From Oceanobacter kriegii DSM 6294 (GTDB lineage Bacteria; Pseudomonadota; Gammaproteobacteria; Pseudomonadales; Oceanobacteraceae): DNA of 64,000 nucleotides. Position 1 is the first letter of the stretch. The number at the start of each line of letters is the position of its first letter. This document shows, one piece after another, positions 21,926 through 36,712 of the stretch. The stretch lies in contig NZ_KE383935.1 of assembly GCF_000422845.1 (NCBI RefSeq), forward strand, positions 1,976 to 65,975. Reading direction: 5' to 3'. The notes below the pieces were generated by a model. That model was not told the origin of the DNA. It searched no databases and worked only from the letters and a program-made list of their open reading frames with translations. Position numbers and translations under genes: made by a program.

Positions 21926-22481
21926 CAGATCATTTGCAGCATCAATCTCGTACTGCATAGGATGGGCACTCGTGCCCATCGCCAGTATCACCAGACTGCA
22001 TCCGCAATATCACCAGACATAAGTCAGGCTGTCAGCAATCAGGCCTCTGGAAATCAAGCCGCCAGAACACGTGGCACACATGAAACACAGGCTGAATCCT
22101 TCAAGACACAGCCTGTGCTTGGGAAGGGTGCACACTGTCGCAAAAACAGTGTGCTGAAAAAGATCAACAACATCGCTACCTGCACACTAGGCAATTCTGC
22201 CGCCCGGTTTTTCCCTGCCAGCGTCACTCGATGACGTTTTGTCCGCTTTTGCCTTTCTTTGTGCGCTTGTTCAATTGCTGACGTTTTGAACGATTGTACC
22301 CAAACGGGTCACCCGCATGACAAAGCGATCAATGCCTGTTGGTCGCTGAAATTTTGAGTGGTATACCATAATACACAACATCGCTAACACGAGTTTCAGA
22401 GCAGCTGCTCCGCTACGGTGGCCGTTCCTGATGCAAAAAACAAACAGCCGCTCAGTCGGTATAAAAAGGGAGCACGGATCG
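21926..22481. other. Intergenic region with three hairpins and an operator
   Basis: It holds three perfect stem-loops: GATGGGCAC/GTGCCCATC (21961-21980, a dispersed palindrome also seen near 27925), CACAGGCT/AGCCTGTG (22086-22117) and GCACACTGT/ACAGTGTGC (22130-22154). The TGGTATACCA operator sits at 22359. No gene is seen. The first hairpin may end the binding-protein transcript. Confidence 0.6.
22359..22374. promoter_or_regulatory. Shared operator, site 1 (BCCT transporter)
   Basis: TGGTATACCATAATAC: the 10-base core TGGTATACCA is a perfect palindrome of the kind bound by GntR/FCD regulators. It lies about 110 bp before the transporter start. The same 15-16 bases occur at 24521, 34556 and 36697. 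Confidence 0.8.
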
Positions 22482-24104
22482 ATGCAACCCAAAAACATGT
22501 TAGTTAGCAACGGGATGTTCGCTGGCATTCACAAGGGTATGAGTATTGCTGCAAAAGCCATGATTCTGGCATTTGTACTCTTTACCGTTCTCAACGTGGA
22601 TTTTGCCAACGGGATCTACAGCGACGTCAAAAGCTGGATTCAAACCACACTGAACTGGTACTACGTGACCGTGGTGAGTGTGGTGCTGTTCTTCTCTATC
22701 TGGGTGGCGTTCAGCCGCTACGGCAACATCAAGCTGGGCGCCGACGATGAAAAACCGGAGTTCGGTTTCTTCACCTGGTTCTCCATGCTGTTCAGCTGCG
22801 CCATTGGCGTTGGCATTCTGTTCTGGAGCATCGCCGAGCCGATCTACCACTTCCAGGGCAACCCCTTTATTGAAATGGCGGGCATCGCCGCCGGTACTCC
22901 GGAAGCGGCTCAAGTCGCCCTGCGCATTACCCTGTTCCACTGGGGCCTGCATGGCTGGGCTATCTACATCATCGTTGGTTTGATGATTGCCTACTTTGCC
23001 TGTCGTCGCGGTTTGCCGATGACCATTCGCTCGGCTCTGTATCCGATTCTGGGTGACAAAATCTACGGCCCGGCCGGTCATGCGGTCGATCTGCTGGCGA
23101 TTTTCAGCACCTTGTTCGGTACCGCCACGGCACTGGGTCTGGGCGTTTCGCAAATGAATGCGGGCTTGAACTACCTGTTTGGTATCGAAGTCTCGAAAAC
23201 CACCCAGATTCTGCTGATTGCCGGTATTACCGTGATTGCCACACTGTCCACCATGAGTGGTTTGCAACGCGGCATCCGTCTTCTGAGTGTGTGGAACATT
23301 CGCCTGAGCCTTATTCTGATCGGCTTCTTTGTGATTGCCGGCCCAACCGTCTACCTGTTGGGTCTGGTGCCGACCAGCATCGGCGACTACTTGTGGAACA
23401 TGATTCCAATGGGCTTCTGGACCGATCCGGACCCGAAAGGTCAGTGGCAGGGCTGGTGGACCATTTTCTACTGGGGCTGGTGGTTGTCCTGGGGCCCGCT
23501 GGTTGGTCTGTTTATCGCCCGTATTTCCCGTGGCCGCACCATCCGTGAGTTCCTGTTGTCGGCACTGATCATCCCACCTCTGGGTGGCTTCCTGTGGATC
23601 ATCGCCTTTGGCGGTACCGCGCTGAACATCGAACTGTACGGTGCCGGTGGCATTGTTGACGCAGTGAACAACAACATGACCATGGCGCTGTACCACACCA
23701 TTGAAGCCATTGGTGTTGAAGCTCTGACCTGGCCGATGGCGCTGCTGGCCACACTGATGATCGTGACCTGGTTTGTGACCTCTGCCGACTCCGGCACTCT
23801 GGTGATCTGTACCATCCTGTCGATGGGTGCCAAAGAGCCACCACTGAGCCTGCGTGCGGTATGGGGTGTATTGCTGGGTGCGGTTGCGGCGGTACTGTTG
23901 CTGGCCGGTGGTTTGAAAGCCTTGCAGTCGGCCACCATTGCGGCGGCCTTGCCTTTCTCGGCGGTGTTGCTGCTGATGTGTGTGGCGCTGGTGAAAGGCT
24001 TCCGCGATGAACGCGATGGTGTGTTCTATGGCAAGGATGACCTTGCGAATCCGGAGGCGTTAAAAACGGCTGCAGAAGCGGCGGCGGTAGAAGCCAAAGC
24101 TTGA
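22482..24104 (+). CDS. BCCT-family betaine/choline/carnitine-type transporter
   Basis: 540 residues from ATG 22482, which has AAGGGAG nine bases upstream; an ATG at 22431 would add 17 residues without a good site. Twelve hydrophobic spans are apparent. The family signature lies at about residues 327-340 (FYWGWWLSWGPLVG), followed by FIARISRGRTIREF. BCCT proteins import quaternary amines and betaines, driven by sodium or proton motive force or by exchange. It shares its promoter operator with the flavin-monooxygenase genes, so the likely substrate is the compound those enzymes degrade, a betaine such as trigonelline or homarine (inference). A terminator follows. Confidence 0.88.
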   Translation: MQPKNMLVSNGMFAGIHKGMSIAAKAMILAFVLFTVLNVDFANGIYSDVKSWIQTTLNWYYVTVVSVVLFFSIWVAFSRYGNIKLGADDEKPEFGFFTWFSMLFSCAIGVGILFWSIAEPIYHFQGNPFIEMAGIAAGTPEAAQVALRITLFHWGLHGWAIYIIVGLMIAYFACRRGLPMTIRSALYPILGDKIYGPAGHAVDLLAIFSTLFGTATALGLGVSQMNAGLNYLFGIEVSKTTQILLIAGITVIATLSTMSGLQRGIRLLSVWNIRLSLILIGFFVIAGPTVYLLGLVPTSIGDYLWNMIPMGFWTDPDPKGQWQGWWTIFYWGWWLSWGPLVGLFIARISRGRTIREFLLSALIIPPLGGFLWIIAFGGTALNIELYGAGGIVDAVNNNMTMALYHTIEAIGVEALTWPMALLATLMIVTWFVTSADSGTLVICTILSMGAKEPPLSLRAVWGVLLGAVAAVLLLAGGLKALQSATIAAALPFSAVLLLMCVALVKGFRDERDGVFYGKDDLANPEALKTAAEAAAVEAKA

Positions 24105-24155
24105 TCCTGATTGCCCACACCGGCTCGTTGGTTCATTGAACTGATGGGCCACCTC

Positions 24156-24190
24156 AAAATGGCGCTGCGGTTTACGTAGCGCCATTTTTT
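24156..24190. terminator. Bidirectional terminator between BCCT and DUF1330 genes
   Basis: AAAATGGCGCT and its exact complement AGCGCCATTTT are separated by 11 bases and continue into a T run. The A tract on the left lets it serve the convergent minus-strand gene as well. Confidence 0.88.
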
Positions 24191-24209
24191 ATGTCCGTCA
24201 GTCAGGAAA

Positions 24210-24500
24210 TCACATGCCCTTCAAAATCAGAATTCGGGCGTTGGCGACTTCAAGGCGGTGTTGGCGGGCTTGTTGGTATTCGTCCGAGTGGTAGCAGGCC
24301 ATCGCCTGGTCGTAGCTGTCGAATTCAAACACCACGGCCCGGTCGGGGGTGCGGTCGAAGCCTTCCAGGCAGGTGATTTCCCGGCCTCGGGCAAGGATGC
24401 GGGCACCGTACTTTTGCAGTGCCGCCGGGGATTGTTCCATGTAACGGGCGTACTGTTCCGGCTCGTCAATATCAACAAATGCTATCCAGTAGGCTTTCAT
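24210..24500 (-). CDS. DUF1330-family small protein
   Basis: 96 residues from ATG 24500, with GGAG eight bases upstream on the minus strand. The sequence (MKAYWIAFVDIDEPEQYARYM, then VVFEFDSYDQAMACYHSDEYQ) fits the dimeric alpha-beta barrel DUF1330 family. It is transcribed divergently from ribBX across a shared TGGTATACCA operator, so it belongs to the same regulon. Such small barrels often accompany catabolic monooxygenases; its reaction is unknown. Confidence 0.8.
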   Translation of the reverse strand: MKAYWIAFVDIDEPEQYARYMEQSPAALQKYGARILARGREITCLEGFDRTPDRAVVFEFDSYDQAMACYHSDEYQQARQHRLEVANARILILKGM

Positions 24501-24520: not shown

Positions 24521-24536
24521 TGGTATACCATAATAC
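24521..24536. promoter_or_regulatory. Shared operator, site 2 (divergent DUF1330 / ribBX)
   Basis: TGGTATACCATAATAC lies between two divergent genes, 21 bp from the start of DUF1330 and about 25 bp before ribBX. That is close enough to both starts to act as a repressor-type operator. Confidence 0.8.
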
Positions 24537-24558: not shown

Positions 24559-25692
24559 ATGGGCAGTAAAATGAATAGCATCCCGGAAATCATTGCCGAC
24601 ATTCAGGCAGGTAAAATGGTCATCCTGATGGATGACGAAGATCGTGAAAATGAAGGCGATCTGATTCTGGCGGCGGAAGCCGTTACCCCGGAAGCCATTA
24701 ACTTTATGGCATTGCATGCGCGTGGGCTGATTTGTCTGACCCTCAGCGAACAGCGCTGCGAGCAGCTGGGTTTGCACGCCATGGTGCCGCAAAACGGTTG
24801 CACCTATGGCACTGCCTTTACCGTCTCCATCGAGGCCGCCGAAGGCGTTACAACCGGCATTTCGGCGGCGGATCGTGCCCGTACAGTTCAGGCTGCGGTA
24901 GCCGCGGATGCCAGGCCAACCGACCTGGTGCAGCCTGGCCATATCTTCCCATTGCGCGCCCGTCAGGGTGGCGTACTGAATCGCGCCGGCCACACCGAAG
25001 CGGGCTGTGATCTGGCCGAATTGGCCGGGTTTGAACCTGCCAGTGTGATTGTTGAAATCATGAACGCCGACGGCACCATGGCCCGCCGCGATGATTTGCT
25101 GGCGTTTTCCGCCGAGCATGATTTGAAGATCGGCACCATCGCCGACCTGATCCAGTACCGCATGGAAAATGAATCCACCATCACCCGCGTTGGCGAGCAG
25201 CAGCTGGCCACCATGCACGGTGAATTCACCATGGTGACCTACGAAGACAAACTCAGCAGCGCCGCGCATATTGCATTGGTGATGGGGGATATCCAGCCGG
25301 ATGAACCTGTGCTGGCACGGGTACATGCCATCGACCCACTGCGTGACCTGATTGGCGCTAATTACACCGGCCCCTCTAACTGGAGTTTGTGGTCGGCGCT
25401 GGAAGCCGTCGCCACCGAAGGCAAGGGCATTGTGGTACTGCTGGACCGTGAAGACTCCGCCAGTGCGCTGCTGCAACGTGCTCCGCAGCTGACCCAACCC
25501 AAACCAAGCACCTCGCACAAGGTATTCAGTGACGTCGGCACCGGCGCGCAGATTTTACGCGATCTGGGCGCGGGCAAAATTCGTCATCTGGGCGCTAACT
25601 GGCGCTTTGTCGGGCTGGAAGGTTACGACCTGGAACTGGTCGACAGCGTGCCGTTTGATGAGTCTATGATCAGCGGCAAAGTGGCTGGGTAA
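24559..25692 (+). CDS. ribB: RibBX-type 3,4-dihydroxy-2-butanone 4-phosphate synthase with degenerate GTP cyclohydrolase II domain
   Basis: 377 residues from ATG 24559 with GAGGAG six bases upstream. Residues 1 to about 205 are a complete RibB domain with the DDEDRENEGD metal/substrate loop and a GHTEAGCDL motif. The C-terminal half aligns with GTP cyclohydrolase II, but the zinc-binding Cys cluster is absent (the region reads RVHAIDPLRDLIGANYTG), so that activity is probably lost. This is the RibBX arrangement described in Proteobacteria. Placed under the same operator as a flavin monooxygenase and reductase, it probably boosts FMN/FAD supply when the pathway is on. Confidence 0.85.
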   Translation: MGSKMNSIPEIIADIQAGKMVILMDDEDRENEGDLILAAEAVTPEAINFMALHARGLICLTLSEQRCEQLGLHAMVPQNGCTYGTAFTVSIEAAEGVTTGISAADRARTVQAAVAADARPTDLVQPGHIFPLRARQGGVLNRAGHTEAGCDLAELAGFEPASVIVEIMNADGTMARRDDLLAFSAEHDLKIGTIADLIQYRMENESTITRVGEQQLATMHGEFTMVTYEDKLSSAAHIALVMGDIQPDEPVLARVHAIDPLRDLIGANYTGPSNWSLWSALEAVATEGKGIVVLLDREDSASALLQRAPQLTQPKPSTSHKVFSDVGTGAQILRDLGAGKIRHLGANWRFVGLEGYDLELVDSVPFDESMISGKVAG

Positions 25693-25728: not shown

Positions 25729-25825
25729 GGTGCGCAGTGCGCACCCTACATCTGTAGGAGGGAATTTATTCCCGAATGGGCTTCGCGTTCCTGAATGAGC
25801 TTCGCGGTTAAAACTGCTCCTACAG
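25729..25825. repeat. REP-like palindromic repeats
   Basis: GGTGCGC/GCGCACC hairpin (25729-25745) followed by a TGTAGGAGGGAATTTATTCC unit ending GCTCCTACA. The same doubled unit precedes the GntR 3' end near 28090-28172. Confidence 0.75.
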
Positions 25826-25858
25826 AGAGTCACAGGGTATGCACCGATTACTGAAACC

Positions 25859-25888
25859 TTATTCGCCGGCGTAACTCGGCGCGATCTC
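25859..25888 (-). pseudogene. Remnant of a GntR/FCD gene 3' end
   Basis: Read on the minus strand these 30 bases encode EIAPSYAGE-stop, against SIAPIYAGE-stop at the end of the GntR gene at 28212. The bases before it (CTGAAACC and a REP unit) are also shared. It is a duplicated tail with no gene attached. Confidence 0.6.
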
Positions 25889-26070
25889 ACTGGCCGCCTA
25901 CAAGGATGTGGGTGGCTACAGCGATCATATGCCGGAGCTGATGACCACCTCGCCGGATGCTCACTACAAACTGCAGAGTGTTGCTGTTAATGATTCCAGT
26001 CATACGGTAATGGCCTACGCACTTTTCTGCGGTACTCATACCGGCCCGGGTGGGCCAGTACCACCAAAAC
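25887..26070 (+). pseudogene. Truncated remnant of a possible SnoaL/NTF2-like gene
   Basis: An open frame reads SLAAYKDVGGYSDHMPEL, continuing through VNDSSHTVMAYALFCGTHTG to GGPVPP. The composition and GTHTG...PP pattern look like a SnoaL/NTF2-fold enzyme, but there is no start region and it breaks off where the convergent GlxA gene's conserved part ends. The last residues of that regulator are read from this remnant's opposite strand. Family assignment is tentative. Confidence 0.45.
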
Positions 26071-27049
26071 GGCGCCGGTACTCTCCCGGCGACAAGCCGA
26101 CAATCCGCACGAACACCTTGCGAAAGAATCCCGGGTCCTGATACCCCACCTCCCAGGCAATGCTTTCTACTGACTGACGGCTGAAGCGCAGCAACTCCTG
26201 GGCGCGACCAACTCTCAGGCGCTGGCAATAATCCGACAGGGTCATGCCGGTGGCCTTCTGAAAGCGTCGCTGCAGTGTGCGCTCATGCAATCCGGCAACG
26301 CTCGCCATATTGGCCAGTTCCGTTTCCTTCCCTTCGTTTTGTTGCAGCCAGTGCTGCAGTTTCAGGATGGCCGCATCGCCGTGCATGAGTTTGGGGGAAA
26401 ACACACTGTAGTAACGCTGCTCCCTTCCGGGAGGATCGATCAGCAGAATACGAGCGGTGTGAATCATGGCCGCTGAGCCCATGAAGCGGTCCACCAGCTT
26501 CAGCCCCAGATCCGTCCAGGCCATTGCGCCACCTGCGGTCAGAACATCGCCGTCATCAATAATCAGCTGATTGATGTCGAGTTTCACTTGCGGAAAGCGG
26601 CGCTGGAATTGTTCTTCGTAAACCCAATGGGTGGTCGCCTTGCGCCCCTCTAGCAAGCCGGACTCGGCCAGAATAAAAGAACCCGCACAAATAGAAGCCA
26701 GTGTCGTTCCGGCCTGGTGAAGCTGTTGCAGCCACCCCGTGTAAGTAGCCCCGACATCGCAGTCCGGTGGTTCTCCCAAACAGGGCGGCAGAATCAGCAC
26801 GTCGGGTATGTCTGTCGGTTGGGTGCCAGTGTCGAAACAGCGTTCGATGACTCCCTCCGCGGATGGTTGCCAATGGCTCACACGAATAACAACGTCGCTC
26901 TGTGCCGTGTTGCCATTGGCCGTATTCAGAGTCGTGGTTCTGGCGTAGCGGTTGGCCAGTTCAAACAGGTCTGTTAACCCCAGCACCGCAGACATTTGTG
27001 CACCGGAATACAGTATCAGACCCACCTCATAGGCGCGGCAGTTGCTCAT
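26036..27049 (-). CDS. GlxA-family AraC transcriptional regulator (DJ-1/PfpI domain)
   Basis: 337 residues. Residues about 1-190 form a DJ-1/PfpI-like domain with the nucleophile-elbow-like ASICAGSFILAESGLL. The AraC helix-turn-helix pair is at about 230-330 (LHERTLQRRFQKATGMTLSDY, then SIAWEVGYQDPGFFRKVF). The conserved part ends near LSPGEYRRRF; the final nine or so residues (GGTGPPGPV) appear to be read from the opposite strand of a gene remnant. It is divergent from the isochorismatase-type hydrolase gene, a common pairing, and probably controls it. Confidence 0.82.
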   Translation of the reverse strand: MSNCRAYEVGLILYSGAQMSAVLGLTDLFELANRYARTTTLNTANGNTAQSDVVIRVSHWQPSAEGVIERCFDTGTQPTDIPDVLILPPCLGEPPDCDVGATYTGWLQQLHQAGTTLASICAGSFILAESGLLEGRKATTHWVYEEQFQRRFPQVKLDINQLIIDDGDVLTAGGAMAWTDLGLKLVDRFMGSAAMIHTARILLIDPPGREQRYYSVFSPKLMHGDAAILKLQHWLQQNEGKETELANMASVAGLHERTLQRRFQKATGMTLSDYCQRLRVGRAQELLRFSRQSVESIAWEVGYQDPGFFRKVFVRIVGLSPGEYRRRFGGTGPPGPV

Positions 27050-27176
27050 GTGTCGTAATAGCCCCTGATTATGTCGATAAAGACATCTGTCAGAATCTGC
27101 TCATACCGCGATGATGTCAAAACACCTTGGGGCCACTGGGCACCCGAGCTCTTTCCTTGAATCAGGACACAGAAGT

Positions 27177-27728
27177 ATGACCAAGCGCGCGATTGTTGTT
27201 GTCGACATCCAGAATGAGTATTTCCCACCGGCTGGCAAGCTGCCGTTGAACGGGGTTGAAGAGGCCGCCGCCAACGCTGCCAAAGTGATTGCCCATGCTC
27301 GTAGTCTGGGGGAGCCCGTCATCCATGTACGCCATGAATTCCCGGACCCGAATGCGCCATTTTTTGCCGCGGGCACGGAAGCGGTAGACATTCATCCGGC
27401 GGTTGCGCCGTTAGCAGGGGAGTTGGTGATTACCAAGAACTACCCGAACTCGTTCCGTGAAACGGCCTTGAAAGAGAAGCTGGATCTGCTCGGAATTACC
27501 GATGTGGTGGTTATCGGCTCCATGAGCCATATGTGCATCGACGCCACCAGTCGCGCCGCCGTCGACTTCGGCTACACCACCACGGTGGTTCATGATGCCT
27601 GTGCCACCCTCGACCTTGAATTCAATGGCGTCACAGTACCCTCTGAACACGTGCATGCTGCGTTTATGAGTGCGCTGGCGTTTCTGTATGGCACGGTGAC
27701 CACGACAGAAGCATTCATAGCAGGTTGA
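27177..27728 (+). CDS. Isochorismatase-family cysteine hydrolase (amidase-like)
   Basis: 183 residues from ATG 27177, where alignment to the family begins (MTKRAIVVVDIQNEY). The catalytic triad is visible: Asp in VVDIQNEY (about 11), Lys in VITKNYPNSF (about 85) and Cys in SHMCIDAT (about 119). Such proteins hydrolyse amides, for example nicotinamide, N-carbamoylsarcosine or ureidoacrylate. Context suggests an N-containing catabolite, but its promoter lacks the TGGTATACCA operator. It is controlled presumably by the divergent GlxA regulator. Substrate unknown. Confidence 0.82.
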   Translation: MTKRAIVVVDIQNEYFPPAGKLPLNGVEEAAANAAKVIAHARSLGEPVIHVRHEFPDPNAPFFAAGTEAVDIHPAVAPLAGELVITKNYPNSFRETALKEKLDLLGITDVVVIGSMSHMCIDATSRAAVDFGYTTTVVHDACATLDLEFNGVTVPSEHVHAAFMSALAFLYGTVTTTEAFIAG

Positions 27729-27767
27729 ACCGCCATCAGCAGGTAATCCCTGGATGTGAAACATACT

Positions 27768-28200
27768 GCTGTAGGAGGGAATTTATTCCCGAACAGGCTC
27801 GCGGTTAAAACCGCTCCTGCAGGTAATTTCGGGATTCGCACGGCGCACCTGATCCGCAGGCAAGCCAGATGGGCGCAAGCGCACCATCCTATGTTGGCTG
27901 AATATGTTCGTCATGGTTATAGGGTGGGCACTCGTGCCCACCGTTATCGCAGGCAAGCCAGCTCGTACGTACCGCACTGCCGTAGGAGGGAATTTATTCC
28001 CGAACGGGTTTGCGGTTAAAACCGCTCCTGCAGGTAATTTCGGGATTCGCACGGCGCACCTGATCCGCAGGCAAGCCAGCTCGTACGTACCGCACTGCTG
28101 TAGGAGGGAATTTATTCCCGAATGAGCTTCGCGTTCCTGAATGGACTTCGCGGTTAAAACCGCTCCTACAGATAGACGCACGGTGCGCATTGCGCACCGG
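27768..28200. repeat. Cluster of REP-like repeats, three units
   Basis: Units starting GTAGGAGGGAATTTATTCCC occur at 27771, 27982 and about 28090. Each is followed by CGCGGTTAAAACCGCTCCT-type arms; the first two share a further 50 bp including GCACGGCGCACCTGATCCGC. A GGTGGGCAC/GTGCCCACC palindrome lies near 27925-27944 and GGTGCGC/GCGCACC near 28183-28199. I see no gene in the 483-bp gap. Confidence 0.8.
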
Positions 28201-28211
28201 TATCTGAAACC

Positions 28212-28943
28212 TTATTCGCCGGCGTAAATCGGCGCGATGCTGGCGGGGTCGATGTCGCTTTGTTCGGCCATCACGGTTAATGCTACGGCGGCGGCTTTCT
28301 GAACGTGTTCAACGCAGGCGCGGTGGGCGGCTTTCGGGTCGCGGGCCTGGATGGCGTCGAAGATGGCGCTCATTTCGGCACCGCTGTCTTTGTAACGGTC
28401 GTTATGGGATACCGAGGTGGCACGCAGGAAGCTGATGCGAGCTTGCAGCTGGCGCAGCAGGTTGCAGGCGGTGCTGTTGCCACAGCCGGTGAACAGTACG
28501 TCGTAGAAGTCGCTGACCGCGCTGATGATGGCGCTGATATCGGCACTGTTCAAACGGCTGTGCAATTTCTTGAGGGCGTATTCGAGGTCGAGCATTTGCT
28601 CATCGGACGCCCGTACGGTGAACAGCTCGACGATCAGGCTTTCCAGTGAACAGCGCAGCTCGTAGATTTCACGGGCCTGCTCCATGGTAATCACAGCTAC
28701 CCGCGGGCCTTTGCCATCGAGGTATTCCACCAGACCTTCAGATTCCAGATGACGCAGGGCTTCGCGTACCGAGGTACGGCTGACGCCCAGCAGGTCACAC
28801 AGGTCGCGTTCAACCAGACGGTCTCCGGGCAAGAACTGGAAGTTCATAATGGCACCGCGCAGCGCCTCGAGGACTTTTTCACGCAGTGTCATGGCTGATC
28901 GTTCAATCTTGCCCAGTTCTTCCCTGGCTTGTCGTTGCAACAT
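28212..28943 (-). CDS. GntR-family (FadR/FCD) transcriptional regulator
   Basis: 243 residues. The N-terminal winged helix (about 18-85) has FLPGDRLVERDLCDLLGVSRTSVREALRHLESEGLV. The all-helical FCD ligand-binding domain covers about 95-225 (YELRCSLESLIVELF through AAHRACVEHVQKAA). FCD regulators bind short palindromes with GT and AC half-sites, so the four TGGTATACCA sites in this region are the natural targets. It probably represses the BCCT, ribBX, PF06684-operon and monooxygenase promoters until a pathway metabolite binds (inference). It heads or follows the catabolic genes on the same strand and has no such site of its own. Confidence 0.85.
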   Translation of the reverse strand: MLQRQAREELGKIERSAMTLREKVLEALRGAIMNFQFLPGDRLVERDLCDLLGVSRTSVREALRHLESEGLVEYLDGKGPRVAVITMEQAREIYELRCSLESLIVELFTVRASDEQMLDLEYALKKLHSRLNSADISAIISAVSDFYDVLFTGCGNSTACNLLRQLQARISFLRATSVSHNDRYKDSGAEMSAIFDAIQARDPKAAHRACVEHVQKAAAVALTVMAEQSDIDPASIAPIYAGE

Positions 28944-29028: not shown

Positions 29029-29439
29029 TCAGGCGACGGGTTTGCTGTCGCTGGTGCCGTTTTCGGCTTCCATCTCGGCGAAGACGCTTTTGGCTATTCT
29101 AAAGCTATCTATCGCTGCTGGCACACCGCAATAGATGGCAGTTTGCAGAAAGATTTCCCGAATCTCTTCTTTGCTGAGGCCATTATTGATCGCGCCACGC
29201 ACATGCACCTTGATCTCATGGGGGCGATTCAGTGCTGTCAGCATGGCCAGATTGATCATGCTGCGTTGCTGGCGGCTGAGGCCGTCGCGGTTCCAGACAT
29301 CGCCCCAGCAGTATTCGGTCACCAGTTCCTGCATCGGCCAGGCGAATTCGTCGCGGTTGTTGTTGATGCTGTTGTCGACGTATTCGTCGCCCAGTACATC
29401 GCGGCGGGTTTGCAGGCCAATATCAAATTTATCGGTCAT
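29029..29439 (-). CDS. Carboxymuconolactone decarboxylase (CMD) family protein
   Basis: 136 residues from ATG 29439, with GGAG six bases upstream. The body matches the CMD/AhpD-like helical fold (WNRDGLSRQQRSMINLAMLTALNRPHEIKVHVRGAINNG, with IYCGVPAAIDSF). It lacks a CxxC pair, so it is closer to gamma-carboxymuconolactone decarboxylases than to AhpD. It is the last gene of the minus-strand catabolic operon, 16 bp after the aldehyde dehydrogenase stop. Its step in the pathway is unknown; a decarboxylation or lactone step is possible. Confidence 0.8.
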   Translation of the reverse strand: MTDKFDIGLQTRRDVLGDEYVDNSINNNRDEFAWPMQELVTEYCWGDVWNRDGLSRQQRSMINLAMLTALNRPHEIKVHVRGAINNGLSKEEIREIFLQTAIYCGVPAAIDSFRIAKSVFAEMEAENGTSDSKPVA

Positions 29440-29455
29440 GTTTGGCTCCATTGAG

Positions 29456-30913
29456 TCAGCTTGGGCGGGCATTCAGCCCACCCATCATCATGTATTTGAT
29501 TTCGGTGTAGTCGTCGATGCCATAGCGTGAACCCTCGCGGCCAAGGCCAGACGTTTTGACACCACCAAATGGTGCAACGGCGGTAGAAATCAGTCCTTCG
29601 TTGATGCCTACCATGCCGTATTCCAGCGCTTCGCCGACGCGCCAGGCTCGGCCAAGGTCGCGGGTGAACAGGTAGGCGGCCAGCCCGGCATCAGTGTTGT
29701 TTGCCAGCGCAATGGCTTCGGCTTCGGTGTCGAAGGTCATCACAGCGGCTAACGGTCCGAAGGTTTCTTCGTTGGCGACGGCCATGTCGGTGGTGATGCC
29801 GCTCAGCAGTGTCGGCTGGAAGAAGTGTTGACCTGCCGGGTGCGGCTCGCCGCCGTGCAGCAGTGTAGCGCCGTGTTGCAGGGCATCCTGTACGTGGCGT
29901 TGGACGGTGGCGACAGCGTTGGCGTTGATCAGCGGGCCTTGTTCTGTGCCCGGTTCCAGACCGTTGCCTACCTTGAGGTCGGCAATGGCGGCGCGGAAGC
30001 GTTCGACAAAGGCATCGTGAATGCCGCGCTGTACCAGAAAACGGTTGGTGCAGACGCAGGTTTGGCCCGCGTTGCGGAATTTCGACACCATGGCGGCTGC
30101 AATGGCGATGTCGATATCGGCATCATCAAAGACAATAAACGGCGCATTGCCGCCCAGCTCCAGTGAGACCTTCTTCACTGTGTCGGCACACTGTCGCAGC
30201 AGCAATTTGCCGATGCGGGTAGAGCCGGTGAAGCTGAGTTTGGCAACCGTCGGGTTGCTGGTCAGTTCGTTACCAATTTCCACTGCATCGCCTGTGATGA
30301 CGTTGAAAATACCCGCAGGCACACCGGCGCGATGGGCCAGTTCGGCCATCGCAAGGGCCGTGAATGGGGTGTCGGGAGCAGGTTTACAGACGAAGCTGCA
30401 GCCGGCTGCCAGTGCCGGGCCGCACTTGCGGGTAATCATGGCGGCGGGGAAGTTCCACGGCGTAATGGCTGCCACCACACCAACCGGTTGACGCACCACC
30501 ACAATGCGGGCGTTCGGGTTCGGACTGGGGATCACATCGCCATACACCCGCTTGGCTTCTTCAGCGAACCACTCCAGAAAACTGGCGGCATACAGAATTT
30601 CGCCATGGGCTTCGGCCAGCGGTTTGCCCTGTTCCAACGTCAGAATGCGCGCCAGTTCGTCGGCATGGGCGACCATCAGTTCGTACCAGCGGTACAGCAC
30701 CTTGCTGCGCTGCTGGGCTGTTTGGGCGGCCCAGTCATGACGGGCGTTAGCCGCGGCTTCGATGGCCTGCTGGGTTTCGGTGGTGCCCATGCGTGGCACC
30801 GTGCCCAGTTGCTCGCCGGTGGCCGGGTTATACACAGGGTCGCTGGCGCCATTAATGGCATCGCGCCATTCGCCGTTGAGGTATGCCTGCTGTCGGAACA
30901 GTTGGGTAGTCAT
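29456..30913 (-). CDS. gabD: Succinate-semialdehyde dehydrogenase-like aldehyde dehydrogenase (TgnE-like role)
   Basis: 485 residues from ATG 30913, overlapping the flavin reductase stop by one base. It has the NAD(P)-binding and catalytic motifs of GabD: ITPWNFPAAMITRK, SFTGSTRIGK, Glu in LELGGNAPFIVFDDADID, Cys in NAGQTCVCTNRF, and C-terminal GLGREGSRYGIDDYTEIKY. GabD oxidises succinate semialdehyde to succinate for the TCA cycle. In trigonelline degradation the terminal enzyme TgnE does this after ring fragments are released, which fits the operon. A second GabD-like gene serves the polyamine island at 48255. Confidence 0.82.
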   Translation of the reverse strand: MTTQLFRQQAYLNGEWRDAINGASDPVYNPATGEQLGTVPRMGTTETQQAIEAAANARHDWAAQTAQQRSKVLYRWYELMVAHADELARILTLEQGKPLAEAHGEILYAASFLEWFAEEAKRVYGDVIPSPNPNARIVVVRQPVGVVAAITPWNFPAAMITRKCGPALAAGCSFVCKPAPDTPFTALAMAELAHRAGVPAGIFNVITGDAVEIGNELTSNPTVAKLSFTGSTRIGKLLLRQCADTVKKVSLELGGNAPFIVFDDADIDIAIAAAMVSKFRNAGQTCVCTNRFLVQRGIHDAFVERFRAAIADLKVGNGLEPGTEQGPLINANAVATVQRHVQDALQHGATLLHGGEPHPAGQHFFQPTLLSGITTDMAVANEETFGPLAAVMTFDTEAEAIALANNTDAGLAAYLFTRDLGRAWRVGEALEYGMVGINEGLISTAVAPFGGVKTSGLGREGSRYGIDDYTEIKYMMMGGLNARPS

Positions 30914-31494
30914 CAGGCCATCGCCTCTTCTGGCGTGTGCAGGGCACTGAACGCGCCACGGCAATACACCATTGGGGTTTGCTCGTCGTTGCAGTGCATG
31001 TGTTCGATACGGCCAATCAGGATGGCGTGGTCGCCACCTTCGTATTCGTGCCAGTGGGAGCATTCCATGGTCGCTACAGCACCGGCCAGTACCGGCGCGC
31101 CAGACGCACCGCTGGTGATGTCCAGTGCGCTAATGGCGTCGCGCTTGGCGTCGCCTTTTTTGGCAAAAGCAAAGGCTTCCGTCGCCTGACCGTCGGCCAG
31201 AATGTTGATGCTGAAATGGCTGGCACTGGTCAGGGTACGGTAGCTTTCGGAGTTGTACTGCGGGCACACCAGCACCAGCGGCGGGTCCATCGACAGCGCG
31301 GTAAAGGCACTGGCGGTAAGACCGTTCACCTGGCCATCCTCGTCGTGGGCCATCACCACGGTGACGCCGGTGGGGAAGGAGCCTAACGTGCGCTTGTATA
31401 ACGCCTGCATGGCTTCCTGCTGTTCTGCCGAGGTCGCTGCTGTTTGTGTCGCTGTTGTTTCGGTAACTGTTGTTTCAGTATTAGCCTGGCTCAT
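30913..31494 (-). CDS. Flavin reductase component of two-component monooxygenase (TgnA-like)
   Basis: 193 residues. The first 27 are Thr/Ala/Gln-rich and probably disordered. The rest matches the FMN-binding split-barrel flavin-reductase family (RTLGSFPTGVTVVMA, GLTASAFTALSMDPPLVLVCP, SHFSINILADGQ, then HAILIGRI). It should supply reduced FMN to the luciferase-like oxygenase encoded at 35594. It is packed between two aldehyde dehydrogenase genes in one operon. The pairing with the oxygenase is inferred from context. Confidence 0.85.
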   Translation of the reverse strand: MSQANTETTVTETTATQTAATSAEQQEAMQALYKRTLGSFPTGVTVVMAHDEDGQVNGLTASAFTALSMDPPLVLVCPQYNSESYRTLTSASHFSINILADGQATEAFAFAKKGDAKRDAISALDITSGASGAPVLAGAVATMECSHWHEYEGGDHAILIGRIEHMHCNDEQTPMVYCRGAFSALHTPEEAMA

Positions 31495-31526: not shown

Positions 31527-33017
31527 TCAGCGCATCACGAATGGGTCGGCCATTGGGGTGTCTGACAGGTTGATCCAGACGGTTTTCTTTTCGGTGTAAG
31601 ACAGCACGGCATCAATGCCGCACTCGCGGCCATAACCGCTCTCACCAAAGCCGCCGATCGGCGCCATGGCGGAAACCACTCGATAGGTATTCACCCAGAT
31701 GATGCCGGAGCGAACATCGCGGCAAAGGCGATGGGCGCGGGCCAGATCGCGGGTCCAGATGCCGGCAGCCAGACCAAAACGGCTGTCGTTGGCCAGTGCC
31801 AGGGCTTCTTCTTCGGTCTTGAACGGAATCGCCGCTGCCACAGGGCCAAACACTTCTTCCTGCATCAGGGTGTCGGAAGGTTTGGGGCATTCCAGCAGTG
31901 TTGGCTGGTAATACCAGCCGGTCAGGCTCGCATCGCCAAGCTCAGGGCGTTGACCGCCGTGGCGCAAGGTCGCACCTTCTTCCAGCGCGGTCGCCACCAG
32001 TTTTTCCGCAATATTGAGCTGGGCTTCGGTGGTCATTGGGCCCATTTCAGTGGCGGCGTCTTTCGGGTTACCGATCTGAATGCGAGCGGCGCGATCGGCA
32101 ATCTTCTGCACCACTTCTTCATAGATAGATTCGTGAATCAGCAAGCGCGAACCGGCCACACAGCTCTGACCAGAAGCGGCGAAGACACCGGCGACAATGC
32201 CATTCACGGCGCTGTCGATGTCGGCATCGGGGAATACGATTTGTGGCGACTTGCCACCCAGCTCCAGTGACAGGTGAGCAAAGTTTTCAGCGCTGGCACG
32301 GACTACGTGGCGGGCTGTTGCTGAGCCGCCGGTAAAGGCAATGTGGCGCACCAGTGGGTGTGAGGTCAGCGCCGATCCGGCGGTTGGGCCAAAGCCGGTC
32401 ACCACGTTCAGCACACCGGCCGGGAAGCCAGCTTGCTGGGCCAGTTTAGCCAATTCAATGATGGAAGCGGAGGCGTGTTCCGACGGCTTGATCACCACCG
32501 TGTTACCTGCTGCCAGTGCTGGCGCCACCTTGATGGCGGTCAGGTACAGCGGGCTGTTCCAAGGAATAATGGCCGCCACCACGCCGATCGGTTCGCGGAT
32601 GGTGTAGGCCATCATGTCGGGCTTGTCGATTGGCAGGGTTTCGCCTTCGACCTTGTCGGCCAAGCCAGCCATGTAATAGAAAAATTCTGGCAGGTAACCC
32701 ACCTGACCGCGGGTTTCACGAATCAGTTTGCCGTTCTCCTGGCTTTCCAGCTGCGCCAGCAGTTCGGTGTTTTCACTGATCAGGTCGCCCAGTTTACGCA
32801 GCAACTTGCCACGTGCAGTAGCGGTCAGGCTACGCCATTCCTTGCCATAAAACGCCTGTTCGGCGGCTTTCACGGCAATATCCACGTCGGCGGCGCTGGC
32901 GTCGGGAAAGGTTGCCCAGGCCGAGGCCGTGGCGGGGTCCATGCTGTCGTAGCGTGCATCGTTGGTGGCGTCACACACTTCGCCACGTATAAACATCTGG
33001 AAACGTTGCAGGCTCAT
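31527..33017 (-). CDS. Aldehyde dehydrogenase (TgnC-like role)
   Basis: 496 residues. Motifs are complete: IIPWNSPLYLTAIKVAPALAAG, FTGGSATARHVV, Glu in LELGGKSPQIVFPDADID, Cys in ASGQSCVAGSRLL, and EVFGPVAAAIPF. It belongs to the broad betaine/aromatic aldehyde dehydrogenase group rather than to GabD. In the trigonelline pathway the enzyme after ring opening (TgnC) oxidises an N-methylformamido-methylene aldehyde/lactone. This gene, coupled by an ATGA overlap to the hydrolase that would act next, fits that place. Confidence 0.82.
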   Translation of the reverse strand: MSLQRFQMFIRGEVCDATNDARYDSMDPATASAWATFPDASAADVDIAVKAAEQAFYGKEWRSLTATARGKLLRKLGDLISENTELLAQLESQENGKLIRETRGQVGYLPEFFYYMAGLADKVEGETLPIDKPDMMAYTIREPIGVVAAIIPWNSPLYLTAIKVAPALAAGNTVVIKPSEHASASIIELAKLAQQAGFPAGVLNVVTGFGPTAGSALTSHPLVRHIAFTGGSATARHVVRASAENFAHLSLELGGKSPQIVFPDADIDSAVNGIVAGVFAASGQSCVAGSRLLIHESIYEEVVQKIADRAARIQIGNPKDAATEMGPMTTEAQLNIAEKLVATALEEGATLRHGGQRPELGDASLTGWYYQPTLLECPKPSDTLMQEEVFGPVAAAIPFKTEEEALALANDSRFGLAAGIWTRDLARAHRLCRDVRSGIIWVNTYRVVSAMAPIGGFGESGYGRECGIDAVLSYTEKKTVWINLSDTPMADPFVMR

Positions 33018-33868
33018 AGGCTGGCCTCCTTCGACAAGTGGGATTGGGTTTGGCTGTTATTGTTGTTGGCCGGGCTTTTGAGGAAGCTCAGTAGCGCATC
33101 GTTCACACGCTGGGGGGATTCCATCGGCATCATATGGCGCTGGCCGGGCATCACCAGGCAGCGTCCGTCTGGCAGTTTGGCGGCCAGTTCCTGCGCCATC
33201 GCCGGGGTCGAGCCCGGGTCGAGTTCGCCGGTCATCACCAGCGTTGGGCAGCTGATGTTCTGAACCTGATCGGCAAGGTAGTTATCGCCGCCAGCGAACA
33301 GGCGATAGGCACGCAGGTAGCCGGTGGGGTTGTTGCCCAGCACCAGTTCCCGAATGCGTTCAATCTGGCCTGGGCTGGCAGCACGGTATTCCGGGCTGAA
33401 CCAGCGTTCCAGAGCGGTTTGCAAATTGGCGTTGGCACCGTCGCGGGCAACTTCTTCGGTGCGCGCCAGAATGGCATTGCGCACTGCATCCGAGCGGTTG
33501 AAGACACTGCCCAGAATCACCAGTCGGGCCAGCTTTTGTGGATAACGCAGGGCAAATACACGGGCGACCAGGCCGCCCATGGAAAAGCCGACCACATGGG
33601 CCTTGCTGATGTTCAGGTGTTGCAGCAGTTCGAACAGCTGTTCGGCATAGTCTTCCAGTGTGGCGTCGGCGCTCTGCAATGGGCTGCGACCATGACCGAG
33701 CATGTCGTAGGTGATCACGCTGTAGTGACGTTGCAGTCCCTCGCATTGGCCGCCCCAGATGCTCTGGTCCAGGCCAACACCGTGAATCAGCACCAGTGCC
33801 TCGCCCTCACCGCACATCGACCAGGCCGTGCCTGCAGGTGTGGTTCCGGTTTGTTTTGTCATGGTCAT
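33014..33868 (-). CDS. Alpha/beta hydrolase (TgnD-like role)
   Basis: 284 residues. It has the oxyanion segment LIHGVGLDQSIWGG, the nucleophile elbow GFSMGG (Ser about 95), an Asp in GELDPGS (about 224) and a His in PGQRHMMPMESP (about 248). The last 20 residues are Asn/Ser/Gln-rich. Members act as C-C or amide hydrolases; (acetamidomethylene)succinate hydrolase from vitamin B6 degradation has this fold. The expected role is amide cleavage of the opened ring product, giving succinate semialdehyde, formate and amine. Substrate is inferred from neighbours only. Confidence 0.8.
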   Translation of the reverse strand: MTMTKQTGTTPAGTAWSMCGEGEALVLIHGVGLDQSIWGGQCEGLQRHYSVITYDMLGHGRSPLQSADATLEDYAEQLFELLQHLNISKAHVVGFSMGGLVARVFALRYPQKLARLVILGSVFNRSDAVRNAILARTEEVARDGANANLQTALERWFSPEYRAASPGQIERIRELVLGNNPTGYLRAYRLFAGGDNYLADQVQNISCPTLVMTGELDPGSTPAMAQELAAKLPDGRCLVMPGQRHMMPMESPQRVNDALLSFLKSPANNNNSQTQSHLSKEASL

Positions 33869-33880: not shown

Positions 33881-34477
33881 TTACTTCGCCAGCTGGGCTT
33901 CGGCTTCCAGTTCTTTCAGATCCTGGTAGCGGTTGCCAATACGTGGGTGCAGACGGCCGCCAGTAGAAGCGCCCAGACATACCACGATTTCGTTCGCCCG
34001 TGGGGCATCTTCAATCGACATTTCCAGCGTCACGTAGTGGGAACGGAAGCCTTCGTCGTCCTTGTGCATCATCGGGATCTGGATAGAAGTGCCCGGGCCA
34101 CCACGCTTGTTGGTGAACGACAGGTAGCTCTTGGCGTTCACTGCGTTGCGGTAGTGGTTGCCAAAGCGCAGGGTGTGGATAACTGCAGAGGCGTGTTCGA
34201 TTTCGCCTTCGGCACCTACTACAGCGGCTTTGCCATAGGCTTCGATCTGGTCGTGACCGCCGATGTAGCGACCGATGTATTCCACAATGGTCTCGCCCAG
34301 CTCGGAGCAGTGGTCACGAATTTCCGGGTTCAGGTCTTCAACAAAGCCACGGCCTGCCCATGGGTTGGTGATGATGGCGGCGACGCCAACCATGGTAACC
34401 GGGGTGTCGGTGGCTTTGCCGCCTTCAATAAAGGTTTCTTCGATGGTGGTAACGATCTTGCGAATTTCAAAGGCCAT
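33881..34477 (-). CDS. PF06684-type 'amino acid synthesis' family protein, function unknown
   Basis: 198 residues from ATG 34477 (AGGA upstream; the longer frame to 34573 would run across the operator). The sequence reads MAFEIRKIVTTIEETFIEGG, with later blocks GVAAIITNPWAGRGFVEDL, HASAVIHTLRFGNHYRNAV, GGPGTSIQIPMMHK and EIVVCLGASTGGR. This matches the poorly characterised PF06684/DUF1185 family found in N-heterocycle and amine catabolic clusters. It is the first gene of the minus-strand operon and lies directly behind the shared operator, so it is probably an enzyme of the pathway, possibly a hydrolase or isomerase of the ring-opened product. Confidence 0.75.
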   Translation of the reverse strand: MAFEIRKIVTTIEETFIEGGKATDTPVTMVGVAAIITNPWAGRGFVEDLNPEIRDHCSELGETIVEYIGRYIGGHDQIEAYGKAAVVGAEGEIEHASAVIHTLRFGNHYRNAVNAKSYLSFTNKRGGPGTSIQIPMMHKDDEGFRSHYVTLEMSIEDAPRANEIVVCLGASTGGRLHPRIGNRYQDLKELEAEAQLAK

Positions 34478-34549: not shown

Positions 34550-34571
34550 GTATTTTGGTATACCATAATAC
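34550..34571. promoter_or_regulatory. Shared operator, site 3 (catabolic operon / GlxA-like regulator)
   Basis: This copy is an almost perfect 22-base palindrome around TGGTATACCA (34556-34565), with outer GTATT and AATAC arms and one mismatch. It lies between the divergent PF06684 operon and an AraC-type regulator gene. Confidence 0.8.
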
Positions 34572-34627: not shown

Positions 34628-35440
34628 ATGCCCCGTTATGTAACATCCCGAACCGCGGCCTGTGACTATATTGTTGTATTAAGACCCGGTTTTCGGTTGT
34701 CGGATCTGGTGCGGGTGACGGAATGGTTATCGGCACGTAAAGGAATATCCGATGCACCGGTTAATTGGACACTTTGTTCAATGGAAGGTGGTTTGGTGCG
34801 CGATAGCGACGATATGTTGATTATGGCCCCCGATACTCTCAGCCGCAGTTTGGATGAAGAGTCCCTGTTACTGGTATTAAGCGGTCAGGATGACTACCAG
34901 CGCGACTTTGAGCTGGTCAGCCTGTTGCAACAGCGGGGCAAACGGCCGCTGCTGTGGGTTGGGCCCGGTCAGTTGGTCAGCGACTATTACCTGTTTCATG
35001 AAATGGCCAGCCGGGCGCGGCTCGATGAAATCATGATCCGACTGTTTATGTCCGATCTGAGTGTTGAGCAGGGAGACTTGCTGGTGGCCCAGCTGGAAGT
35101 CGCGCCGGTGGCGCTGGGGCCTTGTGATTCCAGGGTGCAGCGGGCATTGGCGCTGATGCGTCGGGACATTGACCAGCCGCTCGACCGCGAGCTGATTTCC
35201 CGCCAGGCCTGTTTGTCGGTACGCCAGCTGGAGCGCCTGTTCCAGAAGCATTTTGAGATGACGCCGGGCAAATACTTTACCCGTATGAAGATGGATTTTG
35301 CCCGTTACTGCCTGCAAAACAGCAGTCAGAACGTCACGGATGTGGCTTACCGGTTGGGTTTCAATTCGGTGTCGCATTTCTGCAAGGTGTACAAAACCCG
35401 CTTTGGTGTGGCCCCTGGTCGCACGCCGGTGATTGTTTAA
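34628..35440 (+). CDS. AraC-family regulator with degenerate GlxA-like N-terminal domain
   Basis: 270 residues. The C-terminal helix-turn-helix pair (about 170-265) is typical (LDRELISRQACLSVRQLERLFQKHFEMTPGKYF, DVAYRLGFNSVSHFCKVYKTRFG). The N-terminal 160 residues have the alternating strands of a DJ-1/PfpI domain but lack the nucleophile Cys, and are shorter than in GlxA (about 320 residues total). It is divergent from the catabolic operon across operator site 3, so it is a candidate activator of that operon and may itself be GntR-controlled. Confidence 0.8.
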   Translation: MPRYVTSRTAACDYIVVLRPGFRLSDLVRVTEWLSARKGISDAPVNWTLCSMEGGLVRDSDDMLIMAPDTLSRSLDEESLLLVLSGQDDYQRDFELVSLLQQRGKRPLLWVGPGQLVSDYYLFHEMASRARLDEIMIRLFMSDLSVEQGDLLVAQLEVAPVALGPCDSRVQRALALMRRDIDQPLDRELISRQACLSVRQLERLFQKHFEMTPGKYFTRMKMDFARYCLQNSSQNVTDVAYRLGFNSVSHFCKVYKTRFGVAPGRTPVIV

Positions 35441-35466: not shown

Positions 35467-35505
35467 GCCGCGATATAACACCTCTGTTTATCGCGGCCTT
35501 TTTTT
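35467..35505 (+). terminator. Terminator after the AraC regulator
   Basis: GCCGCGATA and TATCGCGGC arms around a 13-base loop, followed by seven Ts. Confidence 0.85.
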
Positions 35506-35537
35506 AAATAAATATCCGGTTTTATAAACTCCAGCAC

Positions 35538-35572
35538 AAAAAGGAAATCCGGTTGCCCGGATTTCCTTTTTT
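35538..35572. terminator. Bidirectional terminator before the monooxygenase 3' end
   Basis: AAAAGGAAATCCGG and its complement are separated by TTGC. A T run on the plus side and an A run on the minus side let it stop transcription from both directions; it mainly serves the minus-strand monooxygenase gene. Confidence 0.88.
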
Positions 35573-35593
35573 ATATATTAAAACCTGTCGGTT

Positions 35594-36631
35594 TTATTTA
35601 AATGCTGGCATTACCTTGTCGATGAATAACTGCAGCGACTTTTTCTTTTCTGCATGAGAAAGGCTGTTATCGCTCCAGAAGCTGTATTCGGTCAGGCCAG
35701 TGGATTCGTAATACTTCAAACGCTCAATCACTTCGTCTGGCATACCAATGACAACATTGCGACGCAGGACGTCCGGTTGCAGCGCTTCAAACTCATCCAG
35801 TTCGGCATCGGAAATGGGTTTGCAGAAGCCGTTTTCAGGGGTTTGGTCGTTCTTGGCCCAGCCCTGGAAGTGCGCGTACCAGTTGCGAATGCCGTCAACA
35901 CCAATGCGCCAGTCTTCTTCGGCTTCATGCACAAAGGTATGACGCAGGCACATGATTTTTGGCTTGGGCTTTTCCGGGTGCTTGGCACAGGCGGTGTAGT
36001 ACTTATCCATTAATACACCGACTTCTTCGTCGGATTTGAACAGCGGCGTCACCATCAGGTTGCAGTCGTTGGCAACGGCGTAGTCGTGGGAATCCTGTTC
36101 ACGGGCAGCCACCCAAATGCCCGGGCCACCTTGCTGTTGTGGCTTCGGCACTGAGGTAGAGGTTGGGAATTGCCAGTGTTCACCCTCGTGTGCAACGTCG
36201 CCTTGCCACAGTTTTGGCAACAGCGGGATCATTTCACGCAGATGTCCGGCGCCGTTTTTGGCCGGAATGCCACCCGCCATGCGGTCGAATTCACACTGGT
36301 AGGCACCCCGGGCAATACCGAATTCCAGTCGGCCATCAGACATGATGTCGACCAGCGCAGCTTCGCTGGCCAGCTTGATCGGGTTCCAGAAGGGGGCAAT
36401 AACGGTTCCCAGACCCAGTCGGATGGATTTGGTTAGCGGCGCCAGGTAGGCCAGAAAACTCAGTGGATTGGGGCCAATGGTGAATTCCATGGCGTGGTGT
36501 TCACCAATCCAGACGGTTTCCATGCCACCGGCTTCGGCGATTTGCACCAGCTCGGTCAGTTCGTCCAACAGCTCTTTATGGGATTTATCCTGGCTGTAGC
36601 GTTCCATTTGCAGAAACAGGGAAAACTTCAT
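35594..36631 (-). CDS. Luciferase-like FMN-dependent monooxygenase (TgnB-like oxygenase)
   Basis: 345 residues. It matches the bacterial-luciferase family: MKFSLFLQMERYSQ, WIGEHHAMEFTIGPNPLSFLAYLA, IRLGLGTVIAPFWNPIKLASEAALVDIMSDGRLEFGIARGAY, and VIGMPDEVIERLKYYE. These enzymes use reduced flavin and O2; in TgnAB and in pyridine monooxygenase they open the pyridine ring. It is transcribed alone, with its own TGGTATACCA operator about 66 bp upstream, and would be fed by the flavin reductase encoded at 30913. Substrate is inferred. Confidence 0.85.
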   Translation of the reverse strand: MKFSLFLQMERYSQDKSHKELLDELTELVQIAEAGGMETVWIGEHHAMEFTIGPNPLSFLAYLAPLTKSIRLGLGTVIAPFWNPIKLASEAALVDIMSDGRLEFGIARGAYQCEFDRMAGGIPAKNGAGHLREMIPLLPKLWQGDVAHEGEHWQFPTSTSVPKPQQQGGPGIWVAAREQDSHDYAVANDCNLMVTPLFKSDEEVGVLMDKYYTACAKHPEKPKPKIMCLRHTFVHEAEEDWRIGVDGIRNWYAHFQGWAKNDQTPENGFCKPISDAELDEFEALQPDVLRRNVVIGMPDEVIERLKYYESTGLTEYSFWSDNSLSHAEKKKSLQLFIDKVMPAFK

Positions 36632-36696
36632 CTTGCGGGTCCTTCTTGCTGTTCTGTGATTGTGACCAGACGGCTCGTCTAATCTAAGTTGTCTGA

Positions 36697-36712
36697 TGGT
36701 ATACCATAATAT
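36697..36712. promoter_or_regulatory. Shared operator, site 4 (monooxygenase)
   Basis: TGGTATACCATAATAT differs from sites 1-3 only in the last base. It is about 66 bp before the monooxygenase start. The remaining gap to dadA (36713-37096) is AT-rich near its end and holds no gene I can support. Confidence 0.8.

Follow-up and report, generated by a model that had tools for sequence, protein, structure and literature searches.

The 64,000-base stretch of Oceanobacter kriegii DSM 6294 analysed here (contig NZ_KE383935.1, positions 1,976 to 65,975; hereafter the window) carries, between its positions 22,359 and 36,712, a cluster of genes and four copies of one short sequence, here called the tgn box. 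The gene families that an earlier note, made from the DNA letters, had named at this locus were confirmed with Pfam and NCBIfam models. These are a BCCT-family importer (22431..24104, + strand), a DUF1330 protein (24210..24500, − strand; PF07045), a RibBX protein (24559..25692, + strand), and, on the − strand, an operon that begins with a PF06684 protein (33881..34477) and continues through an alpha/beta hydrolase (33014..33868), an aldehyde dehydrogenase (ALDH; 31527..33017), a flavin reductase (30913..31494), a succinate semialdehyde dehydrogenase (SSADH; 29456..30916), and a CMD-family protein (29029..29472) to a GntR/FCD regulator (28212..28943). Beyond the operon lie an AraC-family regulator gene (34628..35440, + strand) and a gene for a luciferase-like monooxygenase (LLM; 35594..36631, − strand; PF00296). 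Between these last two, which are convergent, a stem-loop at 35538..35571 (+ strand), with a 15-pair stem and a T tail, is a likely terminator; it has the longest stem of the 20 terminator-like sites in the region, where 17.5 were expected.

The 15-mer TGGTATACCATAATA occurs exactly four times in the window, starting at 22359, 24521, 34556, and 36697 as the earlier note had it (mean 0.00 copies in 100 dinucleotide-preserving shuffles of the window). The genome scan that was proposed as a check found its first 14 bases at these four sites and no further copy in the 4,505,834-base genome. All four boxes lie within promoter gaps, before the genes that had been named. Box 1 (22359..22373, + strand), with the 22-mer context TTTGAGTGGTATACCATAATAC, precedes the BCCT gene, and has the same place before BCCT in the congeners L161 and L162. 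Box 2 (24521..24535, + strand) is common to the divergent DUF1330 and RibBX genes, box 3 (34556..34570, + strand) lies between the PF06684 operon and the divergent AraC-family gene, which had gone unmentioned, and box 4 (36697..36711, + strand) precedes the LLM gene. The sequences flanking the four boxes are dissimilar, therefore they are not copies of one duplicated stretch. The 15-mer is part of a longer conserved box, RTATTATGGTATACCA, with the core TGGT-AT-ACCA; the 10-bp core TGGTATACCA is found at five places in the genome, the four window boxes and one site on contig C1.

Conservation of the box was surveyed in 85 loci, of which 80 are the best of 409 relatives found by an LLM scan of named genomes and five come from a plasmid collection; 71 are non-actinobacterial and 14 actinobacterial. 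The locus pieces extend about 21 kb or less around the LLM gene (19-31 kb for the five plasmid records), so that absences from them are weak evidence. The exact core is present at 102 sites, in 65 of the 71 non-actinobacterial loci and in none of the 14 actinobacterial ones, and 98 of the 102 sites are beside tgn genes (−80 to 450 bases from the match start); 20 block shuffles of all 85 loci gave zero to two core sites. In five of the six non-actinobacterial loci that lack the exact core, 15 of 16 bases match at a site; the sixth locus is a contig of 3.4 kb. Ahead of the core, RTATTA is conserved at 93% or more per column across the 102 sites, each of which was oriented with its better arm to the left, a choice that favours the conservation of that arm; the other arm is loose. 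The full two-armed form RTATTATGGTATACCATAATAY, a perfect 20-bp palindrome with a non-matching outer pair, is present at two sites. The 15-mer TATTATGGTATACCA was found in four of 55 relatives, all of one genus, and the same four carry an LLM orthologue; three other congeners lack both. All six loci in which GntR and PF06684 genes are divergent neighbours (L097, L098, L099, L155, L156, and L159) have GGTATACC in the gap. Box-bearing loci span Oceanobacter, Marinobacterium, Zobellella, Photobacterium, Pseudomonas, Acinetobacter, Leisingera, and Rhizobium.

In the actinobacterial loci, a TKGNATNCMA site (mostly TKGCATRCAA) lies 300 bases or less before PF06684 in 10 of 13 cases (shuffles, 0-1 of 13), a lead only, as the pattern was picked after viewing these loci, which are related. 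The TKGCATRCAA-type core may be the site of a different GntR in these clusters. Some of the actinobacterial loci (L026, L035, and L045, for example) have two adjacent PF06684 paralogues, and some have a BCCT about 39% identical to that of the window.

In Acinetobacter baylyi ADP1, the tgn reactions open the ring of trigonelline and proceed to succinate, releasing methylamine and formate. The plasmid search matched the window to plasmid NZ_CP094644.1 of Acinetobacter sp. PK01, on which tgnA, tgnB, and tgnC are annotated and where the locus also holds genes for DUF1330, GntR, PF06684, a hydrolase, an NCS1 permease, SSADH, and CMD. This gene-for-gene match to the PK01 tgn cluster, together with the conserved box, upholds the earlier suggestion of a trigonelline-type N-heterocycle pathway with a dedicated regulon. 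All five Tgn enzyme types had been said to be present. This stands for the LLM (TgnB; 51% identical over 343 aa to the annotated tgnB), the ALDH (TgnC; 53%), the hydrolase (TgnD; 37%, sharing the fold family and the position after PF06684), and the SSADH (TgnE; 64%), and needs qualifying for the flavin reductase (TgnA), a short form of 193 aa versus 310 in PK01 that is 37% identical. Reading the PK01 hydrolase as tgnD is our own assignment. The PF06684 protein, the TgnF counterpart and first gene of the operon, is 56% identical to that of PK01, the CMD-family protein, which is PcaC-like and just below the PcaC cut-off, 66%, DUF1330 45%, and GntR 38%. The window SSADH scores 719.9 bits against TIGR01780 (cut-off 646.35) and 758 against the NADP-dependent SSADH equivalog PRK11241, under its cut-off of 828. 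Passages of one paper describe the authors' own PF06684 protein as a homologue of the A. baylyi ADP1 protein TgnF, which stimulates TgnE, and state that no such stimulation was observable for their protein (PMC7913881).

Of the five additions by which the earlier note had set the window version apart, RibBX and BCCT hold against PK01; PF06684, DUF1330, and CMD do not, all three being in the PK01 cluster. Nor is BCCT peculiar to the window version, as there is also one at L154, a locus with an Acinetobacter-type TgnB. Among the best 80 loci of 409, a recurrent order, seen in Oceanobacter, Marinobacterium, Photobacterium, Zobellella, and Pseudomonas, is PF06684, hydrolase, ALDH, reductase, (SSADH), CMD, GntR; some loci have GntR and RibBX relocated, and actinobacteria have a diverged form of the cluster. 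Counterparts in the 71 non-actinobacterial loci number 34 for PF06684, 36 for CMD, 37 for GntR (at 45% identity or more), 28 each for DUF1330 and RibBX, 13 for SSADH, and five for BCCT. Judged from sequence, the cluster looks like a well-equipped version of the known tgn pathway rather than a new pathway; what is distinct in the window is the wiring of BCCT and RibBX, the short reductase, and the separate LLM unit.

The GntR/FCD protein, encoded by the last gene of the operon (PF00392, 62.9 bits; PF07729, 83.8 bits), is the only one of the three window regulators that is conserved with the cluster, and has homologues in the box-bearing loci. It accompanies 33 of the 34 non-actinobacterial loci that hold PF06684 (at 38% identity or more), the remaining locus ending at a contig end, while the GntR of the actinobacterial clusters is 26-31% identical to it. 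NanR is among its better NCBIfam matches, yet far below cut-off. The box core TGGT-AT-ACCA, with its 2-nt spacing, matches the consensus TKGT/ACMA, with two or three nucleotides between GT and AC, that passages of one paper give for the FadR subfamily of GntR regulators (PMC4494728). The suggestion that the GntR/FCD protein at 28212 is the repressor is therefore kept as likely, with the pairing of protein and boxes inferred from this fit and from the conservation of the gene with the cluster; repression is preferred to activation because of the habit of the GntR family.

The box arm TATTAT resembles a −10 element. Of the sites in the loci, it is oriented towards the gene at 34 of the 36 for LLM (two being even), at 27 of the 32 for PF06684, and at 20 of the 22 for RibBX. 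As a −10 element it was rejected, since by eye there is no −35 at the proper distance and since in the window it aims at DUF1330, not RibBX, and away from BCCT. Matches to sigma-70 promoters number four in the region versus a mean of 8.5 in shuffles, and one of them overlaps box 3 on the + strand, heading towards the AraC-family gene.

The RibBX gene at 24559..25692 encodes a DHBP synthase (RibB, 245 versus a cut-off of 177) with a GTP-cyclohydrolase-II half that is weak against RibA (38 bits versus 206) and scores 103 bits with PF00925, passing that model's cut-off; the bifunctional model PRK14019 is above cut-off. No flavin mononucleotide (FMN) riboswitch was found in the window (no Rfam match at gathering score). 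The other RibBX of the genome, 55% identical, is on contig C7, where its neighbours look by eye to be nrdR, ribD, and thiL; the only FMN riboswitch found in the genome precedes a ribB on C1 by about 130 bases. As the window gene is under the box and without an FMN riboswitch, the earlier proposal that RibBX raises the flavin supply of the pathway is retained as likely. In a tgn-like cluster on an Arthrobacter plasmid (L101), a riboflavin kinase gene at 1878-2348, in place of RibBX, is a second kind of flavin-supply gene beside the pathway.

The BCCT protein (PF02028, 601.7 bits) retains, in comparison with solved BCCT transporters, the aromatic motifs HWGLHGWAIY and WGWWLSW, which we take to be regions of the BetP aromatic cage; its best solved-structure matches are named trimethylamine transporter and choline transport protein. 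Similar BCCTs are found in L154, with an Acinetobacter-type LLM (56%), and in L157 (59%), and the NCS1 permeases of the Pseudomonas loci L034 and L091 are 56% identical to that of PK01. This exchange of transporters across LLM groups suggests one substrate class. With the cage-region motifs kept, import of a betaine-like ring by the BCCT protein, as had been proposed, remains likely, and the sequences suggest that some marine bacteria import trigonelline by a BCCT carrier. Upstream of BCCT, at 20894-21925, the window also encodes a choline/betaine-type substrate-binding protein (TIGR03414, 348 bits; cut-off 379), with a 72% identical counterpart upstream of BCCT in the congener L161 (9612-10532) and a 53% copy beside the LLM gene in L019; there is no tgn box before it in the window.

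A candidate methylamine-assimilation locus lies about 110 kb from the cluster on the same contig (C10, 148,000-158,000). It has a glutamine-synthetase-family gene over the cut-off of TIGR03105 (675 bits versus 470), a model that we take to describe gamma-glutamylmethylamide synthetase, as well as genes for a glutamate-synthase domain protein and a GXGXG protein, folD, and purU. In PK01, the tgn cluster adjoins genes read as an N-methylglutamate route for methylamine, and counterparts of its three N-methylglutamate-dehydrogenase-like genes are present in the C10 locus at 77%, 52%, and 61% identity, the last over a cut end. A methylamine locus on the same contig fits an N-methylated substrate.

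Based on the computed gene content, the positions and conservation of the boxes, and the homology to an annotated tgn cluster, the window cluster is quite probably a tgn-type regulon for the catabolism of trigonelline (N-methylnicotinate), repressed by GntR at four promoters. The substrate, the direction of regulation, the pairing of protein and DNA, the role of RibBX, and the fate of methylamine are proposals that go beyond these computed data. The betaine would be taken in by BCCT, and the short flavin reductase would supply reduced flavin to the LLM (TgnB), which would open the pyridinium ring. From there, ALDH (TgnC), the alpha/beta hydrolase (TgnD), SSADH (TgnE), and the PF06684 protein (TgnF) would together complete the route to succinate, freeing methylamine and formate. 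GntR/FCD would repress at RTATTATGGTATACCA at the four promoters and be released by the substrate or an intermediate; because it is encoded at the end of a box-controlled operon, the operon would autoregulate. Sharing the box and lacking an FMN riboswitch, RibBX would raise the flavin supply on demand, and methylamine would be assimilated via the N-methylglutamate-type locus elsewhere on the contig.

A number of observations weigh against this model. The hydrolase, flavin reductase, and GntR are just 37-38% identical to those of PK01, some 150 residues that PK01 TgnA has after the domain are missing from the window reductase, and the tgn names in PK01 are annotation, the comparison having been made with that plasmid and not with ADP1 sequences. 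The sequence GGTATACC is absent throughout L154 (9.8 kb), despite its Acinetobacter-type LLM, and from before the tgn-like genes of L160, a second LLM copy in one genome of the family that contains Pseudomonas. No sigma-70 promoter was recognised at any box on the operon strand in the region scan. The methylamine locus is distant from the window cluster and no exact core was found there in the genome core scan, and a second gene over the TIGR03105 cut-off, on contig C5, is without methylamine-type neighbours. Lastly, the window LLM falls outside the Acinetobacter-type TgnB clade, which is well supported, so that its substrate may have shifted.

The window LLM is 45-90% identical to 37 rows of its family and 23-33% to five outgroup LLMs; measured against three reference rows, identities are at least 44% within the family and at most 34% to outgroup rows. 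Other LLMs of the relatives gave local or low-identity matches only (up to 42% over 60 residues), and one genome has a further LLM copy, 43% identical to that of PK01. In a tree of 43 rows, five of them outgroups (one, L011, wrongly placed on a branch of 9.7), a firm clade (100/100, stem of 0.85 changes per column) unites the rows of Acinetobacter, Leisingera, and Rhizobium with four more, the marine gammaproteobacterial rows and the window form a weak group (89/84), and the placement of the Pseudomonas and actinobacterial rows is not settled. This topology would suit LLM groups that have diverged in substrate, with the same architecture serving another N-methylpyridinium acid, such as homarine, N-methylisonicotinate, or another marine betaine, in the window. 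Homarine is abundant in marine particles according to published passages. This alternative is nevertheless unlikely: transporter genes cross the borders of the LLM groups in three pairs, the operon SSADH exceeds the cut-off of its subfamily, and growth of Ruegeria pomeroyi is, in published passages, poorer on homarine than on trigonelline. Homarine is disfavoured because the ring cleavage implied by the tgnC product name would yield 2-oxoglutarate from it directly, needing no SSADH, and passages of a marine-metabolome paper judge the Tgn enzymes unlikely to act on it. Genomes with both LLM types carry no information either way: none was clearly seen among the matching genomes (10 of 390 and 82 of 298), and the 82 included a single clear case of the Acinetobacter type. 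From the earlier list of trigonelline, homarine, or similar as the imported ring, trigonelline is thus the most likely substrate on sequence grounds, with the LLM difference leaving room for a related acid.

Likewise, it is highly improbable that another regulator, either the AraC-family protein at 34628 or the GlxA-like protein at 26036, binds the boxes while GntR serves something else. The AraC-family gene does adjoin box 3, and it occurs in four of the nearest marine loci. Across the 71 non-actinobacterial loci, in pieces of 31 kb or less, it is nevertheless found in four and the GlxA-like gene in two, versus 37 with GntR at or above 45% identity; neither the GntR group of the window nor the exact core is present in the 14 actinobacterial loci, and the agreement of the core with the FadR-subfamily consensus is contrary to an AraC or GlxA-like binder. 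AraC is better seen as accessory, possibly under box 3. The close company of LLM, flavin reductase, alpha/beta hydrolase, isochorismatase, and RidA families could also recall pyrimidine (Rut) or plain pyridine degradation in place of an N-methyl betaine pathway, an extremely improbable reading, since the isochorismatase and RidA of the window are each found in one of 71 non-actinobacterial loci (at 45% and 60% identity, respectively). A Rut-like pathway was rejected on the model scores, all far under their cut-offs (RutB, 43.5 versus 378; RutF, 66.5 versus 255; RutD, 97.7 versus 238.5; RutC, 64.1 versus 169.1). Trigonelline catabolism under GntR remains the preferred interpretation.

Two neighbouring gene pairs were considered as parts of the regulon and rejected. 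The GlxA-like AraC and isochorismatase-family genes (26036-27728) are flanked by direct (85-96% identical) and inverted repeat copies at 25737-25885 and 27765-28238, and two congeners (L018/L161 and L019/L162) have no such pair in the interval from RibBX to GntR; it looks as if the bracketed pair was either inserted in this strain or lost from the other congeners. The D-amino acid dehydrogenase (DadA) and RidA genes (37097-38943), divergent from LLM, start about 390 bp from box 4, and each is present at 60% identity or more in one of the 71 non-actinobacterial loci, L018 alone among all loci. Further along the window, a glutamine-synthetase-family gene (42464-43780) beside a PotF-like binding protein probably serves polyamine use.

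The degraders of trigonelline and of its isomer homarine, both of them sources of carbon and nitrogen in the sea, are difficult to recognise by their genes. The SSADH argument may help to separate degraders of the one from those of the other, and the box is a specific operator candidate for trigonelline-type catabolism, from which the regulon may be callable in sequence. None of the literature matches listed describes, in its title or abstract opening, a trigonelline operator, a BCCT carrier for trigonelline, or a homarine gene cluster. The broader proposition, with roughly even chances of being right, is that the tgn box and its GntR are a widespread Pseudomonadota regulon, of which the papers searched make no mention, wiring cofactor supply to catabolism, in which RibBX, freed from FMN-riboswitch control, would be under the substrate-responsive tgn repressor and flavin would be made only when the two-component flavin monooxygenase is needed. 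If true, this would be a clean case of flavin biosynthesis under a catabolic repressor rather than FMN.

Amongst known systems, the Escherichia coli NanR regulon resembles the window in having a GntR-type repressor and GGTATA in the operator at several promoters, but differs, according to passages of one paper, in its direct GGTATA repeats and other ligand, as against one palindromic core per promoter in the window (PMC8012715). Closest in content is the PK01 tgn cluster, which shares LLM, flavin reductase, ALDH, hydrolase, SSADH, PF06684, DUF1330, CMD, and GntR/FCD with the window, and which has the box in the gap between GntR and PF06684 and a one-base variant before SSADH. It has an NCS1 permease where the window has BCCT, and its methylamine genes are adjacent rather than distant. 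The window differs further in its added RibBX and AraC genes, in its short reductase, in an LLM that is transcribed alone and is outside the Acinetobacter-type clade, and in a GntR inside the operon.

The Pseudomonas-type clusters (L034 and L091), like the window, have PF06684, hydrolase, ALDH, reductase, CMD, and GntR in one order, with boxes before PF06684 in both and, in L034, before LLM and between DUF1330 and RibBX; both have a one-base box variant before the reductase that precedes LLM. They differ in their NCS1 permease, in a second reductase beside LLM, and in an SSADH that is often outside the locus piece. Trigonelline catabolism in Rhizobium meliloti was reportedly the subject of work by Goldmann et al. 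in 1991. In a Rhizobium etli plasmid locus (L100), PF06684, hydrolase, reductase, LLM, ALDH, SSADH, and a GntR gene are present with a nearly complete palindromic box, as in the window, although there an ABC transporter takes the place of BCCT and no RibBX was seen in the locus piece.

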